A stretch of DNA of 37,968 nt from Bacillota bacterium (GTDB lineage: Bacteria; Bacillota; UBA994), in NCBI GenBank assembly GCA_009773495.1, contig WSXW01000017.1, forward strand, positions 1-37,968, in the 5' to 3' direction. Below the pieces are notes generated by a model. It was given only the letters and a program-made list of their open reading frames with translations, did not search any database and was not told the origin of the DNA. Positions 22,499 to 36,083 of the stretch are shown here, piece after piece. The position numbers and the translations under genes were made by a program. Position 1 is the stretch's first letter; every line of letters starts with the position of its first letter.

Positions 22499-22777
22499 TT
22501 ACCATAGATGATCCGGCGAATCTGCACTGTGCCATCCGTAATTACGAAAAAATACAAGGTAGTCTTCTACTACTAGGTAGCGATATCCCTTAGCCTTAAG
22601 GGCAATATCCCTTACATAGGGGCAACGCTCCGGCAGATGGGCCAATCGACCAATGCTTTCTATGAATAGGTCATAGTATTTAACTGCGGCTTGTGGCGAT
22701 AGTGTGTTGAGGTGGTCGACAATATCCTGTAGGTCGCTTATTGCATGGGAATAAATTTTTACTTTATATGTTTCCAT
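22499..22777 (-). CDS. RelE/ParE-family toxin with frameshifted C terminus
   Basis: The toxin half of a type II toxin-antitoxin pair. Residues 1-75 fit ParE/RelE (KIYSHAISDLQDIVDHL, LPERCPYVRD, KGYRYLVVEDYLVFF). After a run of six T (A6 at 22547-22552 on the plus strand) the frame encodes an unrelated tail ending at 22499. Shifting by one base restores the family ending, VITDGTVQIRRIIYGKRNY, to a stop at 22474. The catalytic C-terminal strands are thus lost as written. This is inactivation or a sequencing error in the homopolymer. The start lies 14 nt inside the antitoxin gene, as is usual. Confidence 0.85.
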   Translation of the reverse strand: METYKVKIYSHAISDLQDIVDHLNTLSPQAAVKYYDLFIESIGRLAHLPERCPYVRDIALKAKGYRYLVVEDYLVFFRNYGWHSADSPDHLW

Positions 22778-23036
22778 GCACGTTGTTTCTCAATCGCTTC
22801 GCCACCTCAAGGAAGTCCTCTCCCTCTGCCCCGTTTGCTATTTCTTCTTCTGCCTCGGCAAGCTTTGTATACAGGTTAATAAGCGCCATCTGCCGCTCAT
22901 ACGTTTCCACGCTCATGACAACCATATCGCCCACGCCGTTCTTTGTTATGAAAACCGGTTCTCTTGTCTCACGGCAGAATTCGGATATTTCATTGGCGTT
23001 GTTCCTCAGATCAGAAATTGGTCTTATTTTGGGCAT
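22764..23036 (-). CDS. Phd/YefM-family antitoxin
   Basis: The DNA-binding antitoxin of the pair. The 90-residue protein starts with the family pattern PISDLRNNANEISEFC, then EPVFITKNGVGDMVVMSVETYE, and has a charged C terminus (AEAEEEIANG) that would wrap the toxin. AAGGAGG precedes the ATG. It overlaps the toxin start by 14 nt, giving coupled translation. Antitoxins of this kind repress their own promoter; the palindromes over the -10 box upstream fit that. Confidence 0.92.
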   Translation of the reverse strand: MPKIRPISDLRNNANEISEFCRETREPVFITKNGVGDMVVMSVETYERQMALINLYTKLAEAEEEIANGAEGEDFLEVAKRLRNNVHGNI

Positions 23037-23266: not shown

Positions 23267-24253
23267 ATGAGTAAGATATACGCCAAGGATGTAGCTGTCG
23301 GCACCACGATTAAGAGTCATTTCTGTGTTATAGACAAGCGTTTAGTAAACTACTCCCGTAATGGGGCTCCGGCCTGTGGGGTGGTTATGACTGTGGGCGA
23401 TAAAACAGGTAAGGTGTCTGCTGTGGTATGGAATGAGGCCTTGGTGGCTGACAATTCCTATCGCAAGGATGATATTGTGTTGTTGGCTGGGCGCGTGCAG
23501 GATTACAAGGGCGATAAACAGATATATATAGAAGAGATTTCTAAGGCAAACTTGGCTGATGTCAATGCCGAGGACTTCTGTGCGGCACCGCCACGGCCCA
23601 TTGCTGAAATGTGGCAGGAGCTGCAAGAAATTGTAGTGACCGTTAGTAATCCCTTCTTGCGTGCGCTACTTGACCTCTACTTATCGTCTGAGGAGGCGAG
23701 GGCTTTTAAGCAGGCTCCAGCCGGGCGGGACGTGCACCATGCTTATGCAGGTGGGTTGCTGCACCACACCCTAGAGGTTATTGCCTACGCCCAAACAATG
23801 GTGGATGTACAGGGTGCTCGTTTAAATCGAGACCTGCTCATTACGGGTGTAGTCCTGCATGACCATGCTAAAACCCAGGAGTATCAGCCTAAGGCCTTTA
23901 GTTTCGAGTTTACAGACCGCGGCAGGTTACTAGGCCACTTGGTTTTGGGAGCTGAGAACGTAGGCAAACTGACCGATAAAATACCGGGCTTTCCGGGGCA
24001 GCTTCGCGATGAGTTGCAGCATATGATTTTGAGCCACCACGGTACCCGTGAGTGGGGCTCACCGGAAGAGCCCAAGACAGCGGCGGCTTTAGCGCTGCAT
24101 CTAGCAGACCTAACAAGTAGCCGCCTAGCCCAGGTGGAGAAAATTATCGACGATACCTTGTCCTTAGGTGAGCGTTGGTCAGCCTGGGACAGGAGGCTAG
24201 AACGCAATTTCTTGGCAGTAACGTGGGGGGAGGATAGGAATGACGAAGCGTAA
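23267..24253 (+). CDS. OB-fold/HD-domain 3'-5' exoribonuclease, YhaM-like
   Basis: YhaM-type proteins are cytosolic 3'-5' exoribonucleases with an N-terminal nucleic-acid-binding OB domain and a metal-dependent HD domain. Here residues about 15-100 form the OB part (GKVSAVVWNEALVADN, VLLAGRVQDYKGDKQIYIEE), and the HD part has HHAYAGGLLHHTLE, the His198-Asp199 pair in VVLHDHAKT, and ILSHHGTREWGSP. The 328-residue length agrees with the family (about 314). The ATG at 23267 follows AGGGGG; 56 upstream codons belong to the leader and its hairpin. It overlaps the selenoprotein gene by 14 nt. Confidence 0.9.
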   Translation: MSKIYAKDVAVGTTIKSHFCVIDKRLVNYSRNGAPACGVVMTVGDKTGKVSAVVWNEALVADNSYRKDDIVLLAGRVQDYKGDKQIYIEEISKANLADVNAEDFCAAPPRPIAEMWQELQEIVVTVSNPFLRALLDLYLSSEEARAFKQAPAGRDVHHAYAGGLLHHTLEVIAYAQTMVDVQGARLNRDLLITGVVLHDHAKTQEYQPKAFSFEFTDRGRLLGHLVLGAENVGKLTDKIPGFPGQLRDELQHMILSHHGTREWGSPEEPKTAAALALHLADLTSSRLAQVEKIIDDTLSLGERWSAWDRRLERNFLAVTWGEDRNDEA

Positions 24254-24653
24254 TGTTTCTATTGTTCTGGTTCTGATAGTGGCTGTAGCAGCTTGGGTGT
24301 TAGCCCATCCTAGCACTGGTGATATCAAGACCGCCAAGCCTTTTGCGGTATATGAGGCAGCGCGAGCTCAACAAAAGCCCATCTTTATTATGTTTACTTC
24401 AGATGGGTGACCCGCCTGTGTAGAAATGTATCCCGCGGTGCGGGATCTCAAAAAAGAATTAGGCAATCAGGTAGTGTTCATTGTGGCTAATTTTCGTAAC
24501 GATGAAACGCTGAAACTCGCTACGCCTTATGGTGTGCGCTATGTCCCTGATTTTATTGTACTTGATAGTGCCGGGAATATTGCTGCCCGTGAGGGAGGCG
24601 CTATGTCTATAGAAGAATTGCGAGCCATGGTGCTGCGGGGGTTGGGACGCTAA
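24240..24653 (+). CDS. Thioredoxin-like selenoprotein (Sec57, UxxC motif)
   Basis: A membrane-anchored thioredoxin-fold protein of 137 residues read through one in-frame TGA (24408-24410). Residues 5-22 are a hydrophobic anchor; the thioredoxin part includes PIFIMFTSDG, then U57-P-A-C60 followed by VEMYP, and the cis-proline strand RYVPDFIVLDSAG. The TGA replaces exactly the first cysteine of the CxxC redox motif, the classic position for selenocysteine, and a SECIS-like hairpin begins 19 nt after it. The reading frame is otherwise open, its ATG overlaps the upstream gene, and its stop overlaps the CcdA gene by one base, so it is under coding constraint. Decoded as a stop, only a start-less fragment (24426 on) would remain. 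It probably exchanges electrons with the CcdA-type partner outside the membrane. Confidence 0.85.
24430..24446 (+). promoter_or_regulatory. Candidate bacterial SECIS hairpin
   Basis: ATCCCGC, loop GGT, GCGGGAT: a perfect 7-bp stem whose loop begins with G, 26 nt after the TGA. Bacterial SECIS elements lie in the coding region shortly after UGA, with a G in the first loop positions (the E. coli fdhF loop is AGGUCU), so position and loop agree. Confidence 0.7.
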
Positions 24654-25342: not shown

Positions 25343-25375
25343 AGCCCCGTGAGCGAAATGTTCACGGGGCTCTTT
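25343..25375 (+). terminator. Rho-independent terminator of the exonuclease-selenoprotein-CcdA operon
   Basis: AGCCCCGTGA pairs with TCACGGGGCT around a 9-nt loop, followed by CTTTGTT. Confidence 0.82.
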
Positions 25376-27298: not shown

Positions 27299-27465
27299 GG
27301 CATTGCCTCGAGCGTGCAATAGCAATAGTTTCTTACAGGGACTACTAAATAATATCTAGTATGTGGGTAGAGACTAGTCAGCTTGTGTGATAAAATCAAC
27401 GTTAGAACAGATCTCTACAATATGTTTCTAGCTTTTTGAAGAGGCTAGTACGGGAGGTAAATGAC

Positions 27466-28290
27466 ATGCGAGACATTCTAAAGCTTAGCTTGACCTTAGC
27501 CTTAATCTGCGCCGTAGCAGGGGGGGCTATAGCCGCAACAAATTCTGTTACCAGTAATATTATTCTTGAGCGCCAGCAACAAGAGTTGACACGCGCACTA
27601 GGCGAGTTGTTGCCCGATGCCGATCAGTTTGAAGAAGTGAATGAAGAAGGTGTTGCCTACTATGTTGGCACTAAGGCTGGCAAAGCAGTAGGCGCTATTA
27701 TGGTTTCGGCCGGTAATGGGTATGCTGGTCCAGTAAACGTACTCGTATCCATTACTATGAGTGGCGAAATCAGAACCGTACGTGTCAGTGGGCATCGGGA
27801 AACTGTTGGTATAGGAGACAAAGTAGAGAATACGCAGTTTCTTGGCCAATTTGTGAACAAGACCCCAGCCGATAAGGTTACAATTGGGCAAGATATTACT
27901 GCCGTGTCCGGCGCCACCATTTCGTCCCGTGCTGTAGCTGCTGGAGTTAAGTTGGCATTGGCGAACTTCCAGGTTCATCTCATGGGAGTAATCGCCCCGA
28001 CAGATGATTTTGATCCGTCGAAAATAAAAGATGGCATCTATAATGGCGAAGCGCTTGGATATAAGAGTCCTATTACGGTCGAAGTGACTATATCTGAGGG
28101 TCGTATCACCAAGATCAGTGTCACCCACAAAGACACCCCAGAGCTAGCCGACGATGCAGTGGATATCGTTGCACAGCGCATCGTTGACAAGCAACATTAT
28201 CAAGTGGATGTGGTGTCTGGGGCAACCTTTACGAGCGAAGGTTTAATCGAAGCAATAACCAACGCTCTTGCGGCAGCTCCACTAAAGTAG
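27466..28290 (+). CDS. FMN-binding protein with RnfG-like and second FMN_bind domain
   Basis: An exported or membrane-anchored flavoprotein of 274 residues. Residues about 5-25 form one N-terminal hydrophobic segment; residues 30-170 resemble RnfG, the covalent-FMN subunit of Rnf electron-transport complexes (GYAGPVNVLVSITMSGEI, SGHRETVGIGDKV). The flavin-attachment motif SGATIS carries Thr151. A second FMN_bind domain follows (DGIYNGEALGYKSPITVEV) with its own motif SGATFT, Thr254. Both threonines would be flavinylated by an ApbE-type transferase, which is not in the window. The ATG at 27466 follows GGGAGG. It lies just upstream of the antiporter cluster with a hairpin between, suggesting a redox role linked to ion transport. 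No other Rnf subunit is here. Confidence 0.88.
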   Translation: MRDILKLSLTLALICAVAGGAIAATNSVTSNIILERQQQELTRALGELLPDADQFEEVNEEGVAYYVGTKAGKAVGAIMVSAGNGYAGPVNVLVSITMSGEIRTVRVSGHRETVGIGDKVENTQFLGQFVNKTPADKVTIGQDITAVSGATISSRAVAAGVKLALANFQVHLMGVIAPTDDFDPSKIKDGIYNGEALGYKSPITVEVTISEGRITKISVTHKDTPELADDAVDIVAQRIVDKQHYQVDVVSGATFTSEGLIEAITNALAAAPLK

Positions 28291-28386: not shown

Positions 28387-28881
28387 TTGTCTATGTGCAT
28401 GCGTCGCATCGGGTGGTCGGCGGCCTTATTTTTGTTGTGGTTATTATTCGCCCAGAGCTTCCATTGGCAAACTGTGCTCACAGGTCTAGTAGTAGCAGCG
28501 GTGGTGACCGTTTTGAATGATGATCTCCTACTCAGCCTGTCAGGGGATCTACATGTGAATGTGCGAAACCTAGGGGCGTGGGCAATTCTTTTTAGTTTGT
28601 TGATAGTAGAGATTGTTAAGTCGGGTTGGCAGGTCGCGGTACTGGCCTTATCGTTTGAATTGAAGCTGCAACCCGTCTTTATTACACACAAATCAAGCCT
28701 CGTAGAGCCGATGATGAGGGTTACTCTGGCCAATAGCATTACCTTGACGCCAGGGACAATTACCGTGGAGGCTCCTTTGACAGGTGATTTTGTGGTGCAC
28801 GCTTTGACTAGCGATGCTGGAGAAGGGCTTCGTGACTGGCATATTGAGAACCGTTTGGCGGCTATTGAAAGGGTGCGGTAA
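28387..28881 (+). CDS. mnhE: Na+/H+ antiporter MnhE/MrpE subunit
   Basis: A small membrane subunit of Mrp-type cation/proton antiporters and of Mbh-type complexes (MbhA). It has two or three N-terminal hydrophobic segments and a cytosolic ferredoxin-like tail; the family stretch SGWQVAVLALSFELKLQP then VTLANSITLTPGTITVE is clear. A GAGGAGG site favours the TTG at 28387; an ATG at 28393 is the alternative. First gene of a tightly packed ten-gene run. Confidence 0.92.
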   Translation: MSMCMRRIGWSAALFLLWLLFAQSFHWQTVLTGLVVAAVVTVLNDDLLLSLSGDLHVNVRNLGAWAILFSLLIVEIVKSGWQVAVLALSFELKLQPVFITHKSSLVEPMMRVTLANSITLTPGTITVEAPLTGDFVVHALTSDAGEGLRDWHIENRLAAIERVR

Positions 28882-28882
28882 C

Positions 28883-29152
28883 GTGGAACAGCTTCTTTTG
28901 CTTATTACCTGTCTGGGTCTGATCATACTTACTTTTGTATCACTATATCGCGCTGTAGTTGGGCCAAGTCCTGCCGATAGGGTTGTGGCTATCAACGTTA
29001 TAGGTACCAAAACCGTGATAGTACTTATCCTAATTGGGTATATCTTTCAAGAAACCCCTTTCTATGTCGATGTTGCGTTAGTTTATACATTAATTAGTTT
29101 CTTGCTTACCATCGGTGTGGCGCGTTATCTAGAGCGCGGTACTATAACTTAG
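28883..29152 (+). CDS. mnhF: Antiporter MnhF/MrpF subunit
   Basis: An 89-residue, three-helix membrane subunit. The diagnostic middle AVVGPSPADRVVAINVIGTKTV matches MrpF (MbhB). It begins with GTG 1 nt after the mnhE stop, with AAGGGTG upstream; the longer frame to 28814 overlaps mnhE and is not used. Works only as part of the complex. Confidence 0.93.
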   Translation: MEQLLLLITCLGLIILTFVSLYRAVVGPSPADRVVAINVIGTKTVIVLILIGYIFQETPFYVDVALVYTLISFLLTIGVARYLERGTIT

Positions 29153-29169
29153 GCTAGGAGGAATTCTAG

Positions 29170-29472
29170 GTGACCTATTTTCTGGCTAGTGTGTTTTTGT
29201 TGAGTGGTCTCTTTTTCTTTCTGGCCGGGACAGTCGGTCTAATTCGATTTCCCGATGTTTTGACAAGAATGCACGCTACTACTAAGTGCGATACTTTAGG
29301 CGCTGGATTGGTTCTAGTCGGGTTGCTATTCTATCCGGGTAACACATATCTCCGACTTAAGTTGGTGTTGGTGATCGCATTTCTGTGGCTGACCAACCCG
29401 ACCGCAGCCCATTATATGGCTCGCGCAGTCTATCGGACTACGGAAGGAGAACAAGATGCTAGCATTGATTAA
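29170..29472 (+). CDS. mnhG: Antiporter MnhG/MrpG subunit
   Basis: A 100-residue, three-helix subunit with the MrpG (MbhC) block GLIRFPDVLTRMHATTKCDTLG and LTNPTAAHYMARA. It starts with GTG after AGGAGG and overlaps the next gene by 17 nt. Confidence 0.93.
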   Translation: MTYFLASVFLLSGLFFFLAGTVGLIRFPDVLTRMHATTKCDTLGAGLVLVGLLFYPGNTYLRLKLVLVIAFLWLTNPTAAHYMARAVYRTTEGEQDASID

Positions 29473-29698
29473 CCTCCTACTCTTAGTCTTTTTGGTCGTG
29501 TGCGCTGTAATCGTTGCACGTACCAGAGATCTGCTCAGCGCGGTGATCATACTTGGTGCCTACAGCATGATGATGTCGATTATTTGGCAGCAGCTTCATT
29601 CTCCGGACGTGGCTATTACAGAGGCAGCCATCGGAGCGGGAGCTACCTCATTGTTGTTCCTAGCAGCAATTAGCAGAACAAGGAGGCACGAAGAATGA
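29456..29698 (+). CDS. DUF4040 subunit, MbhD-like (split MrpA C-terminal part)
   Basis: An 80-residue membrane protein corresponding to part of the MrpA C-terminal region that is a separate gene (MbhD) in Mbh-type operons. Three hydrophobic helices; the last contains SPDVAITEAAIGAGATSLLF, the best marker of the family. GGAAGGAG precedes its ATG; its stop overlaps the next start. Confidence 0.88.
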   Translation: MLALINLLLLVFLVVCAVIVARTRDLLSAVIILGAYSMMMSIIWQQLHSPDVAITEAAIGAGATSLLFLAAISRTRRHEE

Positions 29699-29964
29699 GG
29701 AGGATAATCTCCCTTATAATCCTTGGTGGAATTCTCGTGCTCTTGGTTCTAGCTGTAGCAGAAATGCCTGCCTTTGGTGACGAAACGGCCCCTGCTCATC
29801 AGGGTATTATGCAGAAATACTTAGCTGACAGCACAGTGGACACGGGTGCTATAAATACCATCGCAGCTATTATTCTTGACTATAGGGCCTACGATACTTT
29901 AGGCGAAGCTACAGTCTTATTTGTAGCTGTGGTGGCGGTATCAGCAGTCTTTTATAAGAGGTGA
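29695..29964 (+). CDS. MbhE-like subunit (split MrpA C-terminal part)
   Basis: An 89-residue membrane protein with an N-terminal helix, an exposed loop, then TGAINTIAAIILDYRAYDTLGEATVLFVAV, a stretch that marks the MbhE/MrpA-C family. It overlaps the DUF4040 gene by 4 nt and the following frame by a few bases, confirming one operon. Confidence 0.88.
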   Translation: MRRIISLIILGGILVLLVLAVAEMPAFGDETAPAHQGIMQKYLADSTVDTGAINTIAAIILDYRAYDTLGEATVLFVAVVAVSAVFYKR

Positions 29965-29969
29965 ACCGT

Positions 29970-30410
29970 ATGCATGATATGATCCTGGAAATGATAGCAC
30001 GACTGCTCATCCCTATGATCCAATTATTTGGTATGTACGTCTTGTTTCATGGGCACCTCTCCCCTGGGGGTAGCTTTTCTGGAGGAACAATTATAGCAGC
30101 GAGCCTGATATTTTATAGTCTAGTCTTTCGTTTTAGTGAGCGAAAGCACCGCCTCCAGCATGACACCTCACTGCTTTTTGAGGGAGGAGGCGCTCTTCTA
30201 TATATTGTAGTAGGATTAGTTGGGATATTTTTTGGCTATAGCTTCCTCACTAACCGGGGAGTCTTCCCACTGGGGCAGGCGGGTAGACTGTGGAGCAGCG
30301 GCATGATCGCCATCATCACGGTAGGGTTAGGCGGGAAAGTGGCTGGAACTATCTTTACCCTATTTCAGGAGCTACTAGAAGGAGGGACGGATACAGATGG
30401 CAATCATTGA
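29970..30410 (+). CDS. mnhB: Antiporter MnhB/MrpB subunit
   Basis: A 146-residue, four-helix subunit with the MrpB marks FGMYVLFHGHLSPGGSFSGG and FLTNRGVFPLGQ. I use the ATG at 29970 (AAGAGGTG 6 nt upstream) rather than the GTG at 29961 within the previous stop region. It overlaps mnhC by 14 nt. Confidence 0.92.
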   Translation: MHDMILEMIARLLIPMIQLFGMYVLFHGHLSPGGSFSGGTIIAASLIFYSLVFRFSERKHRLQHDTSLLFEGGGALLYIVVGLVGIFFGYSFLTNRGVFPLGQAGRLWSSGMIAIITVGLGGKVAGTIFTLFQELLEGGTDTDGNH

Positions 30411-30768
30411 ACGCCTTTCAGTAAACGTGTATTATCTAGTGTCCGTAATCCTGTTCGTGATTGGCTTTCATACTATGCTTACGCATAATAATCTCATCAA
30501 AAAAATCATGGGTATGAATATAATGGATACGGCCCTATTTCTTTTTTTTGTTTCAATAGGATATATTAGGGGCGGTCAAGCTCCCATTTTAATTAATGGT
30601 GTGGAGAAGTACGTGAATCCAGTCCCTTCAGCACTAATTCTTACGGGTATTGTTATATCTGTTAGTTTTACTGCCTTTGCTCTGGCGCTTGTTATCATGT
30701 TATATCGTTACTACGGCACACTTGACGCTGACAAGATAATCGCCTTAAGAGGTAGACGTCATGGTTAA
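30397..30768 (+). CDS. mnhC: Antiporter MnhC/MrpC (NuoK-like) subunit
   Basis: A 123-residue, three-helix NuoK-type subunit. GFHTMLTHNNLIKKIMGMNIMD and VNPVPSALILTGIVISVS are characteristic; the membrane Glu of NuoK is not obvious, as is common in MrpC. AAGGAGG precedes the ATG. It overlaps the first large antiporter subunit by 8 nt. Confidence 0.92.
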   Translation: MAIIERLSVNVYYLVSVILFVIGFHTMLTHNNLIKKIMGMNIMDTALFLFFVSIGYIRGGQAPILINGVEKYVNPVPSALILTGIVISVSFTAFALALVIMLYRYYGTLDADKIIALRGRRHG

Positions 30769-32227
30769 TATCACACATACCCCTGTCCTGATAGTTGTTC
30801 TGCTCTTGTCGGGCGCATTTGTCGTTGCACTTCTTTCCAAGTACTTGCAGGTAGGGCGTTTTATCTTCTTGCTAACAGCGGCTATGGTCCTGCTTTTATC
30901 TACGAGGCTGACATTCATGGTTCTTGAATATGGAACAATACACTATACCCTAGGTGGGTGGGCGCCTCCCTTCGGAATAGAGATTGTGGTGGATGCCTTT
31001 GCGGCCTTCAGTTCCCTAGTCATCGCAGGGGTCAGCGCTGTTATTTTTTGGTTTGCTGTGTTCGGGCCTCGCGAGGTTAACAATGAAACAGGATATTATT
31101 CCTTACTGCTTCTTCTTACAGCTGCGATGCATGGTATGGTATTGACGGGAGATCTGTTTAACCTATTTGTTTTTGTTGAGATCAGCTCCCTTGCTGCCAT
31201 TGCTATCATCGCGGTAAAAGGCACGGGGGAGAGCATCGAGGCGAGTTTCCGCTACTTAGTCCTTAGTGCATTAGGATCTGGTGTGGTGTTGTTTAGCATT
31301 GCACTGATATTTATGATTAGTGGACATCTCAACATGTCTTATATTCACGATGCGCTAGTGATTACGGCGGGTCAATATCCGCTCAATATTGTTTTAGCCG
31401 TAGGGTTTATGCTCGTGGGGTTTGCTGTTAAGGCTGCACTCTTCCCCCTGCACGTGTGGTTGCCAGATGCTCACTCCAATGCGCCCACGGCGTCGAGTGC
31501 TCTGCTTAGCGGACTGGTGGTAAAGGTATATATTATCGCTTTCATGCGTATTGTCTATCTTGCGCTCGGTATCCCCATTTTTGAGATTTTACCAATTAGG
31601 CAAATCTTTTTAGTTCTAGCCTCGATTGCTATCATTATGGGGTCTGTTTTCGCTATGGTGCAGGACAATATTAAGCGCATGCTAGCTTATTCTACCATTG
31701 CGCAGGTGGGATACATTTTTTTGGGTGTAGGGTTGTTTAATCAGCGTGCTGTGGAAGGCGCAGTTTTCCATATCCTCAACCATGCCATTATGAAGTCATT
31801 GTTGTTCTTGTCGGCTGGTGTTATCATTCATCAGAGCGGGCATAAGAAAATATCCGAGCTGAGTGGTTTAGGGCGCCGCATACCTTTTACCTTTGCAGCC
31901 TTTAGTATAGGTGCACTATCGATGGTAGGCATTCCTGGGACTGCGGGCTTCATTTCGAAGCTCTATCTCGCGTTAGGAGCACTGGACGCTGGTCAAACAC
32001 TCTTTGCCATCTTAATTTTGATCAGCAGTTTGCTAAACGCCATCTACTACTTCCCTATCATTATTGCGGCGTATTTTGGTAAAGATTCACCTTTAGATGC
32101 GAGGGACCCGGCTTGGGCTACGCAGCTCCCTCTGGTTGTGTTATCGCTTGGCGTCCTTTTCTTCGGTTTATTCCCCTCTATAGCCATTCCCCTAGTGAGA
32201 CAAACGGCACAGTTATTTATAAAATAG
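30761..32227 (+). CDS. mnhD: Antiporter MnhD/MrpD-type subunit, first copy
   Basis: A proton/cation-translocating subunit of 488 residues with about 14 membrane helices, homologous to NuoL/M/N. Conserved charged residues in the membrane are visible: Glu in FVFVEISSL (helix 5), Lys in FAVKAALFPLHVWLPDAH (helix 7), Lys in LSGLVVKVY (helix 8), His in HILNHAIMKS and Lys in GFISKLYLA (helix 12). Closest in pattern to MrpD/MbhH. Its ATG overlaps mnhC. Confidence 0.93.
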   Translation: MVNITHTPVLIVVLLLSGAFVVALLSKYLQVGRFIFLLTAAMVLLLSTRLTFMVLEYGTIHYTLGGWAPPFGIEIVVDAFAAFSSLVIAGVSAVIFWFAVFGPREVNNETGYYSLLLLLTAAMHGMVLTGDLFNLFVFVEISSLAAIAIIAVKGTGESIEASFRYLVLSALGSGVVLFSIALIFMISGHLNMSYIHDALVITAGQYPLNIVLAVGFMLVGFAVKAALFPLHVWLPDAHSNAPTASSALLSGLVVKVYIIAFMRIVYLALGIPIFEILPIRQIFLVLASIAIIMGSVFAMVQDNIKRMLAYSTIAQVGYIFLGVGLFNQRAVEGAVFHILNHAIMKSLLFLSAGVIIHQSGHKKISELSGLGRRIPFTFAAFSIGALSMVGIPGTAGFISKLYLALGALDAGQTLFAILILISSLLNAIYYFPIIIAAYFGKDSPLDARDPAWATQLPLVVLSLGVLFFGLFPSIAIPLVRQTAQLFIK

Positions 32228-32240
32228 TGGAGGCTTCGTT

Positions 32241-33734
32241 ATGCATGGATTATTTCAGGCTGCTGTTTTAGCGGCCCTCGTGCCCCTTATGTTTGCTTTA
32301 GTGATCTATCTTGTAGAGAAACACTCATGGAAGTTACGAAATGGTTTATCTGTATTGGCAAGCCTTGCCTCGTTTGTGTTAGTCATAAGCCATTATAAGC
32401 GCATCATGGCAGGAGAAACGATTTTGGTCAAGTTTCCCAACTTGCTCCCTCCACTTGGCATTTCATTTAGAGTGGACTATTTAAGCTTTTTAGTGGCAGC
32501 CATAATTTCTGGGATATGGTTTTTGGTAACGGTGTACTCTACGGAGTACATGGTCAAGGAACATGCCAAGAATCGGTACTATCCCTTTTCAGTTCTAACT
32601 CTTGCCGGAGCTTTAGGGGTAGTCCTTAGCGGTGATCTGTTTACTTTCTTCCTATTCTTCGAACTTATGTCGCTATCTGCCTATGTATTGGTCGTGCATG
32701 AAGAGACCGAACAGGCGATGCGAGCAGGCTATAAGTATCTTATTCTCACGATAATCGGCGGTTTGGCGCTGTTCTTCGCAATTATAGCTGTCTATGAAAT
32801 CGCTGGAACTGTTGCTTTTACGCCAGGGGGGTTCGTACAAGAGAGCGGGCGACTCGCTCTGTTCTCCTTCATAGCCTTTTTCATTGGATTTGGAATTAAG
32901 GCAGGTGTGGTACCGCTACACGTATGGCTGCCAGAGGCACATCCTGTTGCACCGAGCCCTGCTAGTGCGTTACTCTCGGGGTTGATGCTGAAGACCGGGG
33001 CCTATGGGTTTATCAGGATTGTGTTCAACATTTATGGTGTTGAGTTAATTAGAGAGACCGGTTGGAACAACATGATGCTATTATTTGCGGTTGTTACAAT
33101 CTTTTTAGGGTCTGCGGTAGCCATTACACAGGACGACATTAAGCGCCGTTTGGCGTACTCTAGTGTCGGACAGATGGGGTATATTGTGTTGGGTATCGCC
33201 TTGTTACAAGAAAGAGCCCTCATAGGAGCAATCTTTCATATTTTCGCCCACGCGCTAATGAAGTCTAGTCTCTTCTTGGCTGCCGGCGCGATTATTTACC
33301 GCACGGGCAAGCGTAAGGTATCTGAGTGGCACGGTATGGGTAAGCAGATGTTTGTCACGATGATAGTTTTTACAATTGCCTCTATATCAATGGTGGGAAT
33401 TCCACCGTTAGTTGGCTTCATCTCTAAATGGGAGATTGCGCTTGGATCACTAGATGCAGGTAATTGGGGGTACGTCCTGTTACTACTCCTGAGTTCCTTG
33501 ATGAACTTCATTTATTATTTCCCAGTTATCCAAGGGGCATTTTTTGGAGACCCGCATCTTCACCATGATGCGCACGAAGACAAAGAACCAAGGCATAGAG
33601 AATTGCCCTGGGCCATGTTAGTTCCCATGGTAGTTTTAGCAGGACTGATCGTCTTCGTAGACCTCTTGCCCCGAAATATAGTACTTGAGCTTGCGGAGCA
33701 AGCTGCTCACGCACTGTTCTTTGCCATCAAGTAA
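32241..33734 (+). CDS. Antiporter-type proton-conducting subunit, second copy
   Basis: A second NuoM/MrpD-like subunit, 497 residues and about 14 helices. Conserved sites: Glu in FFLFFELMSLSAY, Lys in GIKAGVVPLHVWLPEAH, Lys in LSGLMLKTGAYG, HIFAHALMKSS and GFISKWEIA. The histidine-rich loop near residue 440 (DPHLHHDAHED) is unusual and could bind metal. GGAGG precedes the ATG, 13 nt after the previous stop. The paralogy with its two neighbours implies a channel row like the NuoL/M/N arm. Confidence 0.92.
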   Translation: MHGLFQAAVLAALVPLMFALVIYLVEKHSWKLRNGLSVLASLASFVLVISHYKRIMAGETILVKFPNLLPPLGISFRVDYLSFLVAAIISGIWFLVTVYSTEYMVKEHAKNRYYPFSVLTLAGALGVVLSGDLFTFFLFFELMSLSAYVLVVHEETEQAMRAGYKYLILTIIGGLALFFAIIAVYEIAGTVAFTPGGFVQESGRLALFSFIAFFIGFGIKAGVVPLHVWLPEAHPVAPSPASALLSGLMLKTGAYGFIRIVFNIYGVELIRETGWNNMMLLFAVVTIFLGSAVAITQDDIKRRLAYSSVGQMGYIVLGIALLQERALIGAIFHIFAHALMKSSLFLAAGAIIYRTGKRKVSEWHGMGKQMFVTMIVFTIASISMVGIPPLVGFISKWEIALGSLDAGNWGYVLLLLLSSLMNFIYYFPVIQGAFFGDPHLHHDAHEDKEPRHRELPWAMLVPMVVLAGLIVFVDLLPRNIVLELAEQAAHALFFAIK

Positions 33735-33746
33735 CGGGAGGTTGAC

Positions 33747-36083
33747 ATGCGCCTAATAGATGTCCTCTTGTTGGTGCCTATTCTGACCCCCATTGCTGGG
33801 GGGCTCCTCATTGGTGCAGCATCTGGGTGGAGTGCTAGACTCCGTAGCAGAGTGACGGTTTTGACCGCAGCAATTGCTTTTACTGCGTCATCTGTTATCT
33901 ACTATTTACAGCACTTTGCCCATCAAGAGCTGTCACTGACATTTTTCAGATTGGTTGACTATGGCTTGAAGTTTCGACCCACAGATTTAGGGAGCCTCTT
34001 GGCTGTGGTCGCCTCAGCATTGTGGCTACTGGCCACGATTTATTCACTAGTGTACATGAAGCATGAGCATTCGCAGTCCCGTTTTTTTGCGTTTTTGATG
34101 CTAAGCCTTAGCGGCTGTCTGGGTGTGTTCCTTGCGGGGGATTATTTTACGCTCTTTCTATTTTTTGAATTCATGACCTTTACCGCGTATCCGCTGGTCA
34201 TACACGAAGAGGACGAGAACGCAATGCGTGCCGGTGATACCTATCTCTACATGAGTGTGGCGGGCGGTCTAGTCTTGTTATTTGGTATATTGGCATTGGT
34301 ATGGACAACCGGCACTGCCGATATCGCTCCAGCGTTAGATGCATTACACAAGGGGAATATCAGCCCTTACTTTATAGCCCTCACATTTATAGTTGGTTTT
34401 GGTGTTAAAGCAGGTATAGTACCTTTACACATTTGGTTACCACAGGCGCATCCCGTAGCTCCCTCTCCCGCAAGCGCCTTGCTCTCCGGGGTGATGATCA
34501 AGACTGGGGCCTATGGTATTCTCAGCTTCCTGACGGTGACTCTGTCTTCTAATAACGCGCACAGTGCGTATCTTATAATACCGCAAAATATAGGCTATGT
34601 GATGATTTGGGTGGCCTTGTTGACCATGATTGGCGGAGCGTTCATGGCTTTGATGCAAGACAGCATAAAAAAAATTCTAGCCTATTCGAGTGTCAGTCAA
34701 ATGGGGTATATTATGCTAGCAATTGGGTGCGCTGCGTATTTATCTGAAGAGGGCGGTTTGTCTTACACAGCTGCGGTATTCCATGCGTTTAACCATGCCG
34801 TGTTTAAGTCCGGCTTATTCTTGATGATCGGTACAGTCTACCTACTCACCCACACCTTGAGTCTTAGCAAACTCGGCGGAATGTCTAAATATCTACCCTT
34901 TACAACGATAGCCACTTTGATCGCCTCGTTCGCAGTACTAGGCATGCCGGGGTTTAGTGGCTTTCCGAGTAAGACGTTAATACATCATGCAATAGTCGAA
35001 GCTGCCCAGCACAGCCAAAGTGCTTGGTTACTCCTAGCAGAGAAATTATTCGTAGTAGGTAGTGCTATTACTGCTGCCTATTTCATCAAGCTATATACCG
35101 GCATATTTTTTGGCCAGTACAAGGGCGATAAGCCTCCGACACAGGGAGAAGGTACCTTAGTTCGTATGGTGTTGGGCGTGTTCTGTCTAGCAATAATCCT
35201 CGTAGGTATTTTTCCGTATCAGGTTATGCACTTCTTAGAATCAACGGCTCACGGTACTGTAGTTGACCTGCACGTACTAGAAGAACAGCTTCACCACGTT
35301 AAGTTCTGGGATGTCCACTCTTACGGAGGTGTTATGCTGCCCGCGTCCTTAGGCATAGCGATTTTCTTTATAGCAAAATATTTTAAGTTCTTTACGTGGC
35401 GTTACCCGCTTTGGTTGTCAGTAGAGGGGTTTATTTATCGCCCGCTCTATCACGGTTTTCTCACCCTATGTTGCCGCTACGTTACTAGCGTTGAGGGCGG
35501 TATATGTGAGCTGTATGACCGCAGTGGTAGTGCCTCTGGTCGATTGATCAACAGAGTAAAGAGATTTGATGATATGATTGACGAAGGCTACGAGGCTATG
35601 GGGCATGCTACTACCAAGCTAGTAGAAGAGGCCCGCCATATAGACCATGGCGTTGACAATGCCTATAATCAAGCTGGGCGAACTGTGGAAGTCTTGGCTA
35701 GCAAGGTAACTCAGGTGGATAGTGAGATAGACCAGACCTACGCTAGGGCCGGTAGAGCAGTGCTTAGGCTTACTGAAGAAGTAGCTAAGGCTGACCGCGA
35801 TATTGATCACGTTTATGATAACGTGGGAAACGCTGCGCTTAAGCTTACTGAAAGCGTAGCCAAAGCAGATGAGAAACTGGACCACGGTTATGATCGCGTT
35901 GCCCAACAAGGATTGGACATTTTAGAGACTGTTCGCCAAGTGGATCAACCTAAAGCAACCAAGACTGAGGTAGATAGACAAAACTGGAATCCGCAGAACA
36001 TCACACTGGGTTCGCTGATAGTGGCAGGACTATTGCTTATTATTCTTGCGGTGCTATATTTCTTCGGAGGCAATGTACTGTAG
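33747..36083 (+). CDS. Third antiporter-type subunit with C-terminal 25-residue repeats and extra membrane anchor
   Basis: A 778-residue NuoL/MrpA-N-like subunit. Residues 1 to about 550 form the antiporter fold with Glu in FLFFEFMTFTAY, Lys in GVKAGIVPLHIWLPQAH, Lys in LSGVMIKTGAYG and Lys in SGFPSKTLIHH. After the last antiporter helix comes EGFIYRPLYHGF, then residues 582-731 made of one degenerate and five regular 25-residue units rich in Asp, Glu, Lys and Ala, predicted helical, and finally a lone membrane helix (about 752-773). NuoL ends in a comparable lateral helix plus anchor helix, but I know of no version built from such repeats. It probably supplies the missing MrpA N-terminal function of this split system. 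GGGAGG precedes the ATG. Confidence 0.92.
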   Translation: MRLIDVLLLVPILTPIAGGLLIGAASGWSARLRSRVTVLTAAIAFTASSVIYYLQHFAHQELSLTFFRLVDYGLKFRPTDLGSLLAVVASALWLLATIYSLVYMKHEHSQSRFFAFLMLSLSGCLGVFLAGDYFTLFLFFEFMTFTAYPLVIHEEDENAMRAGDTYLYMSVAGGLVLLFGILALVWTTGTADIAPALDALHKGNISPYFIALTFIVGFGVKAGIVPLHIWLPQAHPVAPSPASALLSGVMIKTGAYGILSFLTVTLSSNNAHSAYLIIPQNIGYVMIWVALLTMIGGAFMALMQDSIKKILAYSSVSQMGYIMLAIGCAAYLSEEGGLSYTAAVFHAFNHAVFKSGLFLMIGTVYLLTHTLSLSKLGGMSKYLPFTTIATLIASFAVLGMPGFSGFPSKTLIHHAIVEAAQHSQSAWLLLAEKLFVVGSAITAAYFIKLYTGIFFGQYKGDKPPTQGEGTLVRMVLGVFCLAIILVGIFPYQVMHFLESTAHGTVVDLHVLEEQLHHVKFWDVHSYGGVMLPASLGIAIFFIAKYFKFFTWRYPLWLSVEGFIYRPLYHGFLTLCCRYVTSVEGGICELYDRSGSASGRLINRVKRFDDMIDEGYEAMGHATTKLVEEARHIDHGVDNAYNQAGRTVEVLASKVTQVDSEIDQTYARAGRAVLRLTEEVAKADRDIDHVYDNVGNAALKLTESVAKADEKLDHGYDRVAQQGLDILETVRQVDQPKATKTEVDRQNWNPQNITLGSLIVAGLLLIILAVLYFFGGNVL
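35490..35939 (+). repeat. Six tandem 25-codon units in the third antiporter subunit
   Basis: Units begin at 35490 (degenerate), 35565, 35640, 35715, 35790 and 35865 with no gaps. In all five regular units positions 2 and 6 are Asp and 9 is Tyr; 5, 19 and 23 are hydrophobic or Ala; 13 is Gly in four of five. The DNA copies are much more diverged than the protein pattern. Confidence 0.9.

Follow-up and report, generated by a model that had tools for sequence, protein, structure and literature searches.

The window, by which we mean the whole stretch of 37,968 nucleotides that was analysed, harbors an operon with the gene order HD/OB-trx-ccdA, the middle gene of which is interrupted by a TGA codon. 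The features of the operon are as follows.

23267-24253, + strand: gene for an OB-fold/HD-domain protein, a relative of YhaM-like exoribonucleases and the first gene of the operon (Pfam, NCBIfam; the order HD-trx-ccdA is the same in all 8 genomes of the window's family).
24240-24653, + strand: probable seleno-thioredoxin gene, 137 aa, with Sec57, an N-terminal membrane anchor and a UxxC active site (reading frame, Pfam, relatives, fold model).
24246-24305, + strand: codons of the predicted N-terminal transmembrane helix (residues 3-22), with KR on its N side and without a lipobox Cys (structure prediction, sequence).
24408-24410, + strand: in-frame TGA, almost certainly read as Sec, the first residue of U-P-A-C (TGA at the same codon in 35 homologues, a Cys codon in 21).
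24430-24446, + strand: bSECIS hairpin with a 7-bp stem, a GGU apical loop and 26 nt from UGA to loop (covariation, published model in PMC13188914).
24653-25330, + strand: ccdA (DsbD_TM family), 225 aa, the sole DsbD_TM member in the genome (Pfam, genome search).
25343-25371, + strand: intrinsic-terminator-like hairpin of 13 pairs at the operon end, of a kind that shuffled sequences yield equally often.

The frame at 24240-24653 contains one internal TGA, which corresponds to residue 57 in the context FTSDG-U-PAC-VEMYP, and when it is read through the protein sequence is MTKRNVSIVLVLIVAVAAWVLAHPSTG...FIMFTSDG-U-PAC-VEMYP...VRYVPDFIVLD.... The original prediction had located this TGA at the first Cys of a thioredoxin CxxC motif, downstream of a membrane anchor and flanked by intact signatures of the fold, and each of these elements was recovered. 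With the TGA treated as a residue, the protein matches PF13098 Thioredoxin_2 (48.7 bits, cut-off 27) with its UxxC and is also above the Pfam cut-off for Thioredoxin (PF00085), while the neighbouring CcdA exceeds that for DsbD_TM. The AlphaFold model (mean pLDDT 91.5) has a transmembrane helix at residues 3-22 and, after it, a thioredoxin fold in which the TGA residue immediately precedes the active-site helix, and the top matches of this model in the PDB are thioredoxins. The gene overlaps the upstream HD gene (end 24253) by 14 nt and ccdA (start 24653) by 1 nt, exactly as had been described. Elsewhere in the window, a ParE-type toxin and Phd/YefM antitoxin pair lies on the minus strand just upstream of the operon (22499-23036), and positions 28387-36083 hold Mrp-type Na+/H+ antiporter genes (MNHE and three Proton_antipo_M proteins), which are consistent with an alkaline habitat. 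The product of 27436-28290, which has FMN-binding domains and a signal-like helix at its N terminus, is a possible extracytoplasmic electron carrier.

The genome is able to make selenocysteine. A tRNA-Sec at C61:125118-125209 scores above the Rfam cut-off and is also called by ARAGORN, with anticodon TCA. On the same contig selB and selA, both above their NCBIfam cut-offs, form one run of overlapping genes with the thioredoxin reductase gene trxB, and selD, likewise above its cut-off, is accompanied by a LysR-type regulator resembling a selenium-metabolism model. The components that the original prediction had named for a check, selA, selB, selC and selD, are thus all present. The selD contig also carries grdA, grdB and grdE, a few kb from selD, and both grdA (ECFVUTAAGA) and grdB (LTSTUGTCTR) have an in-frame UGA at the canonical position. 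In this region (L191:5956-7863, genome contig C61), situated a few kb away from the sel genes, grdB and grdA have as neighbours grdE, a thioredoxin gene and a gene for a TrxB-thioredoxin fusion; glycine reduction has been reported in serpentinite-spring bacteria, and the grd genes found here fit that report (PMC9751293). The grdB gene has a hairpin with a GGT loop, as does the seleno-thioredoxin gene, and the GGU-loop form was not seen in grdA, which hence provides no clean control.

An in-frame TGA would also be found if the genome read TGA as Trp or another residue throughout. However, TGA is the ordinary stop of selA, selD and trxB and of two of the sampled window genes, which shows that the genetic code is not reassigned. 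Moreover, the codon stands in for an active-site Cys and not for a Trp, in grdA and grdB TGA is found at the canonical Sec positions, and a tRNA-Sec is present, so that a reassigned code has a negligible chance of being correct.

A second alternative is that the TGA is a nonsense mutation, real or artefactual, in an ordinary Cys thioredoxin, a reading to which a lone TGA in a draft contig lends itself and with which the Cys homologues of a related genus would agree. We therefore compared the gene with its relatives. In the nearest genus (g2) the single TGA lies at the same codon in 4/4 genomes, and in the next genus (g3) the protein has a Cys, encoded by TGC, in 3/3 genomes; the alignment with Cys homologues beside ccdA that the original prediction had proposed hence gives Sec in one sister genus and Cys in the other. 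Genus g3 retains SelB, which indicates that its Cys form is not a consequence of loss of the Sec machinery. SelB is above the cut-off in 49/61 relatives and thus too widespread for its presence to be informative when correlated with the Sec-Trx. Across a phylum sample of 398 genomes we extracted 56 homologues, of which 35 (from 34 genomes) carry the TGA in place of the first Cys of the active-site motif and 21 encode a Cys there, and a maximum-likelihood tree requires at least 4 Sec/Cys changes. No homologue is broken elsewhere: the thioredoxin domain contains no further in-frame TGA, and the fold and the second Cys are intact. The gene thereby shows the mark of a bacterial selenoprotein, a UGA in frame where homologues encode a redox-active Cys. 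Because independent genomes share the TGA while the sister genus has TGC, sequencing error at this codon is excluded.

The hairpin downstream of the TGA provides a separate line of evidence. It had been described as a 7-bp, GGU-loop hairpin starting 19 nt after the TGA, and it is found as such at 24430-24446 (ATCCCGC-GGT-GCGGGAT). The bSECIS model as given in PMC13188914 specifies a loop of 3-9 nt with a G within its first two positions, a stem of 4-16 bp, a spacing of 16-37 nt and an MFE of at most -7.5. The window hairpin agrees with every element, having a 3-nt GGU loop, a 7-bp stem and 26 nt spacing, and the region 12-52 nt from the UGA folds with -10.7 kcal/mol. Only 8 of the 1140 TGA triplets of the window (0.7%) have an equally strong hairpin at that distance, a rarity that taken alone is suggestive. 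At a fixed register in 33 Sec sequences, 77.8% of pair cells are formed compared to 71.8% in shuffles, a count of paired cells biased in favour of the hairpin since the register was picked on the same sequences. Cells with changes on both sides number 16 compared to 5.6 in shuffles, and 0/500 shuffles attain the pairing, the double-change count or the covariation score of the Sec set. When the partner is slid along, pairing in the Sec sequences falls to 31-53%, and the Cys homologues at the same register are 34.4% paired, which equals chance. The stem sequences themselves differ, being TCCCGC/GCGGGA in the window and g2 genes and GAGCC/GGCTC in most others. Synonymous-codon shuffles of each Sec gene gave a median p of 0.09, with 10/35 below 0.05; as this single-sequence test is weak, it is the covariation test that carries the argument for the hairpin. 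Folding of the full 48-nt stretch from the UGA favours an alternative pairing with UGA-proximal bases over the simple hairpin, a competing structure that a ribosome sitting on those bases would be expected to block. The match to the published model, the compensatory changes in Sec homologues and the chance-level pairing in Cys homologues indicate, at the level of sequence, that the hairpin has the properties of a bacterial SECIS, in agreement with the role originally assigned to it.

Since the TGA recurs, in the four g2 genomes and in the 35 phylum homologues, and the hairpin covaries, chance is excluded and the reading as a pseudogene or as an assembly or sequencing error is refuted. The confinement of the covariation to Sec genes and the presence of the Sec machinery weigh against it further, and we regard it as highly improbable. 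On the sequence evidence, the gene is almost certainly a genuine selenoprotein gene with Sec encoded at 24408-24410.

A single-protein query against genome contigs found no related loci, and a 29-row alignment had no stretch of sufficient conservation to search with, so we turned to a DNA pattern composed of the UxxC codons and the hairpin only. In the GTDB collection, with its roughly 85,000 species genomes, the pattern matched 56 loci, and all 56 lie in frame within a gene for a UxxC thioredoxin that belongs to this family. The next gene downstream is ccdA in 45 of them. The carriers are nearly all recorded as Bacillota and include Desulfosporosinus, Thermincola, Carboxydocella, Dethiobacter and Syntrophomonadaceae MAGs from soda lakes. 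Because ordinary gene calling would split such genes at the UGA and misread them as broken, and because no NCBIfam model names a CcdA-paired seleno-thioredoxin family (the window protein is above no NCBIfam cut-off), such a pattern can recover genes of this type.

In CcdA and DsbD systems, electrons from cytoplasmic thioredoxin cross the membrane to thioredoxin-like domains outside. The window protein has the properties of a CcdA-dependent extracytoplasmic protein of this kind, namely a predicted anchor, a predicted thioredoxin fold with C/UxxC and genetic linkage with ccdA, and its CcdA neighbour is the one DsbD/CcdA protein in the genome. In the phylum sample ccdA is the next gene at 27/35 Sec loci and 18/21 Cys loci. 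The conserved pair, the anchor with its basic N side and the sole DsbD/CcdA protein suggest that the same electron route operates here, and from this analysis a seleno-thioredoxin fed by CcdA is likely. The original prediction had proposed just such a membrane-tethered protein; synteny and the single DsbD/CcdA protein support it, and we infer the electron transfer itself. In the mechanism that we propose, the in-frame GGU-loop hairpin would recruit SelB-GTP-Sec-tRNA(Sec) and the ribosome would insert Sec at the UGA at 24408-24410. The one N-terminal helix is predicted to anchor the product in the membrane such that the thioredoxin domain faces outward. CcdA, encoded by the overlapping next gene, may draw electrons from thioredoxin in the cytoplasm and deliver them through the membrane to the U57-C60 selenylsulfide, and the reduced selenol/thiol pair would then reduce extracytoplasmic disulfides.

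CcdA is not an invariable partner, since ccdA is non-adjacent in 8/35 Sec loci, and some of these have a radical-SAM-like gene in its place. Such loci would fit a seleno-thioredoxin that is not fed by CcdA, with the adjacency reflecting another link, such as a cytoplasm-facing domain or another reductase. This is unlikely given the adjacency at 27 Sec and 18 Cys loci, the 1-nt overlap in the window, the single CcdA in the genome, the N-terminal helix with its basic N side and the established biochemistry of CcdA and DsbD. One subclade (L093, L094 and L077) is of a different make-up: the seleno-thioredoxin gene is followed not by ccdA but by a probable radical-SAM gene, in the translation of which CNxxCxFC was spotted by eye, and a tsaD-like gene lies upstream. 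Apparent Trx-CcdA fusions at some loci proved to be an artefact of reading through TGA stops.

The novelty of the protein had been overrated in the original prediction, as Sec-containing UxxC thioredoxins (PF00085) are a long-known bacterial kind (listed in PMC1088965, PMC1794560 and PMC13188914), and Carboxydothermus hydrogenoformans, of the Bacillota, has already been credited with a Sec thioredoxin (PMC1794560). Like these, the window protein has a thioredoxin fold in which Sec replaces the N-terminal Cys of the active site, and its gene has an in-frame bSECIS, but it is membrane-anchored and CcdA-paired, and it scores 29 bits against a cut-off of 96.8 in the thioredoxin equivalog model TIGR01068. 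A UxxC selenoprotein called 'thiol:disulfide interchange protein' (PF13098) is also on record (PMC13188914 and its reference 12), and the carriers named for it in a 2006 table are Deltaproteobacteria (PMC1794560). It has the same best Pfam family, the same motif and the same inferred type of function as the window protein; it differs in these named carriers, and the passages on this family, of which WP_011366075.1 is the representative, do not mention CcdA pairing. With the systems of CcdA and ResA, StoA or CcmG, and with DsbD (beta and gamma), the window locus has in common a CcdA-type transporter and a membrane-tethered thioredoxin-like partner, but it differs in having Sec, not Cys, at the attacking position and in a genome without a ResB match. 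The window protein falls below the cut-offs for ResA (17 of 170 bits) and DsbE (CcmG; 17.2 of 123 bits) and does not match the StoA model; several proteins of relatives match DsbD, ResA and StoA models. TsoB (NF045694), SaoT (NF040730) and HUIPC (NF047660) are likewise thioredoxin-like or DsbD-like selenoproteins; the TsoB model is matched weakly (22.4 of 805 bits), and the SaoT and HUIPC models are not matched at E 0.01. In the open library searched we found no paper joining selenoproteins to CcdA in this sense; a review on tellurite and selenite that came up deals, judging from title and abstract, with other matters. A family of CcdA-paired, membrane-tethered selenothioredoxins appears to be undescribed in the literature searched.

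What the protein does in the cell is suggested by the other contents of the genome, which is 97.8% complete, so that absences from it are provisional. Searches of it for the families Redoxin, AhpC-TSA and ResB gave no match, and hence no reductase of the TlpA/ResA/CcmG type was found. As CcdA is also its only DsbD/CcdA protein, the seleno-thioredoxin/CcdA pair is probably the genome's main extracytoplasmic thiol reductant. Its duties may comprise general thiol homeostasis and, by a weaker inference, the reduction of apocytochrome c, a CcmG-like task. A gene for a cytochrome c552 (NrfA-like, multihaem) is followed by ccmA, ccmB, ccmC and ccmF-like genes (L186:7528-12824, genome contig C50), and a CcmG-type thioredoxin was not found in this cluster. 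ResA-type cytochrome maturation (system II) was ruled out for this genome, as no ResB was found.

If the selenoprotein is accepted, its role could be specifically the maturation of c-type cytochromes in the place of CcmG/ResA. The nrfA-like gene adjoining ccm genes that lack a CcmG, and the missing Redoxin, AhpC-TSA and ResB matches, speak for this, as does an enrichment of cytochrome c assembly proteins in Sec-Trx genomes (27/34 compared to 143/364 others; Fisher p 7e-6, uncorrected for phylogeny). However, no cytochrome c assembly match was obtained in 7/34 Sec-Trx genomes, including two from the window's family, which argues that cytochrome maturation is not the sole task, and the Trx operon is unlinked to the ccm cluster. 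Cytochrome maturation is hence a plausible duty, but a role dedicated to it is less likely than not. With the same reserve we put forward the broadest reading, that a widespread, unnamed family of CcdA-paired, membrane-tethered selenothioredoxins of anaerobes may represent a split DsbD with a Sec outer module, acting in this lineage as the main extracytoplasmic thiol reductase and replacing CcmG/ResA in cytochrome c maturation.

That an entire family of probable CcdA partners outside the cytoplasm uses Sec would connect the supply of selenium with extracytoplasmic thiol chemistry in anaerobes, among them Desulfosporosinus, Thermincola, Carboxydocella and bacteria of soda lakes. Moreover, sister genera of which one has the Sec and another the Cys form, together with the loss of the hairpin in the latter, offer a compact test case for why Sec is retained or lost while the Sec machinery stays. 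Finally, many Redoxin-family matches in relatives (G009:C77:20824, G011:C6:18093 and G016:C10:57231, among others) contain a single in-frame TGA and are probably further peroxiredoxin-like selenoproteins.
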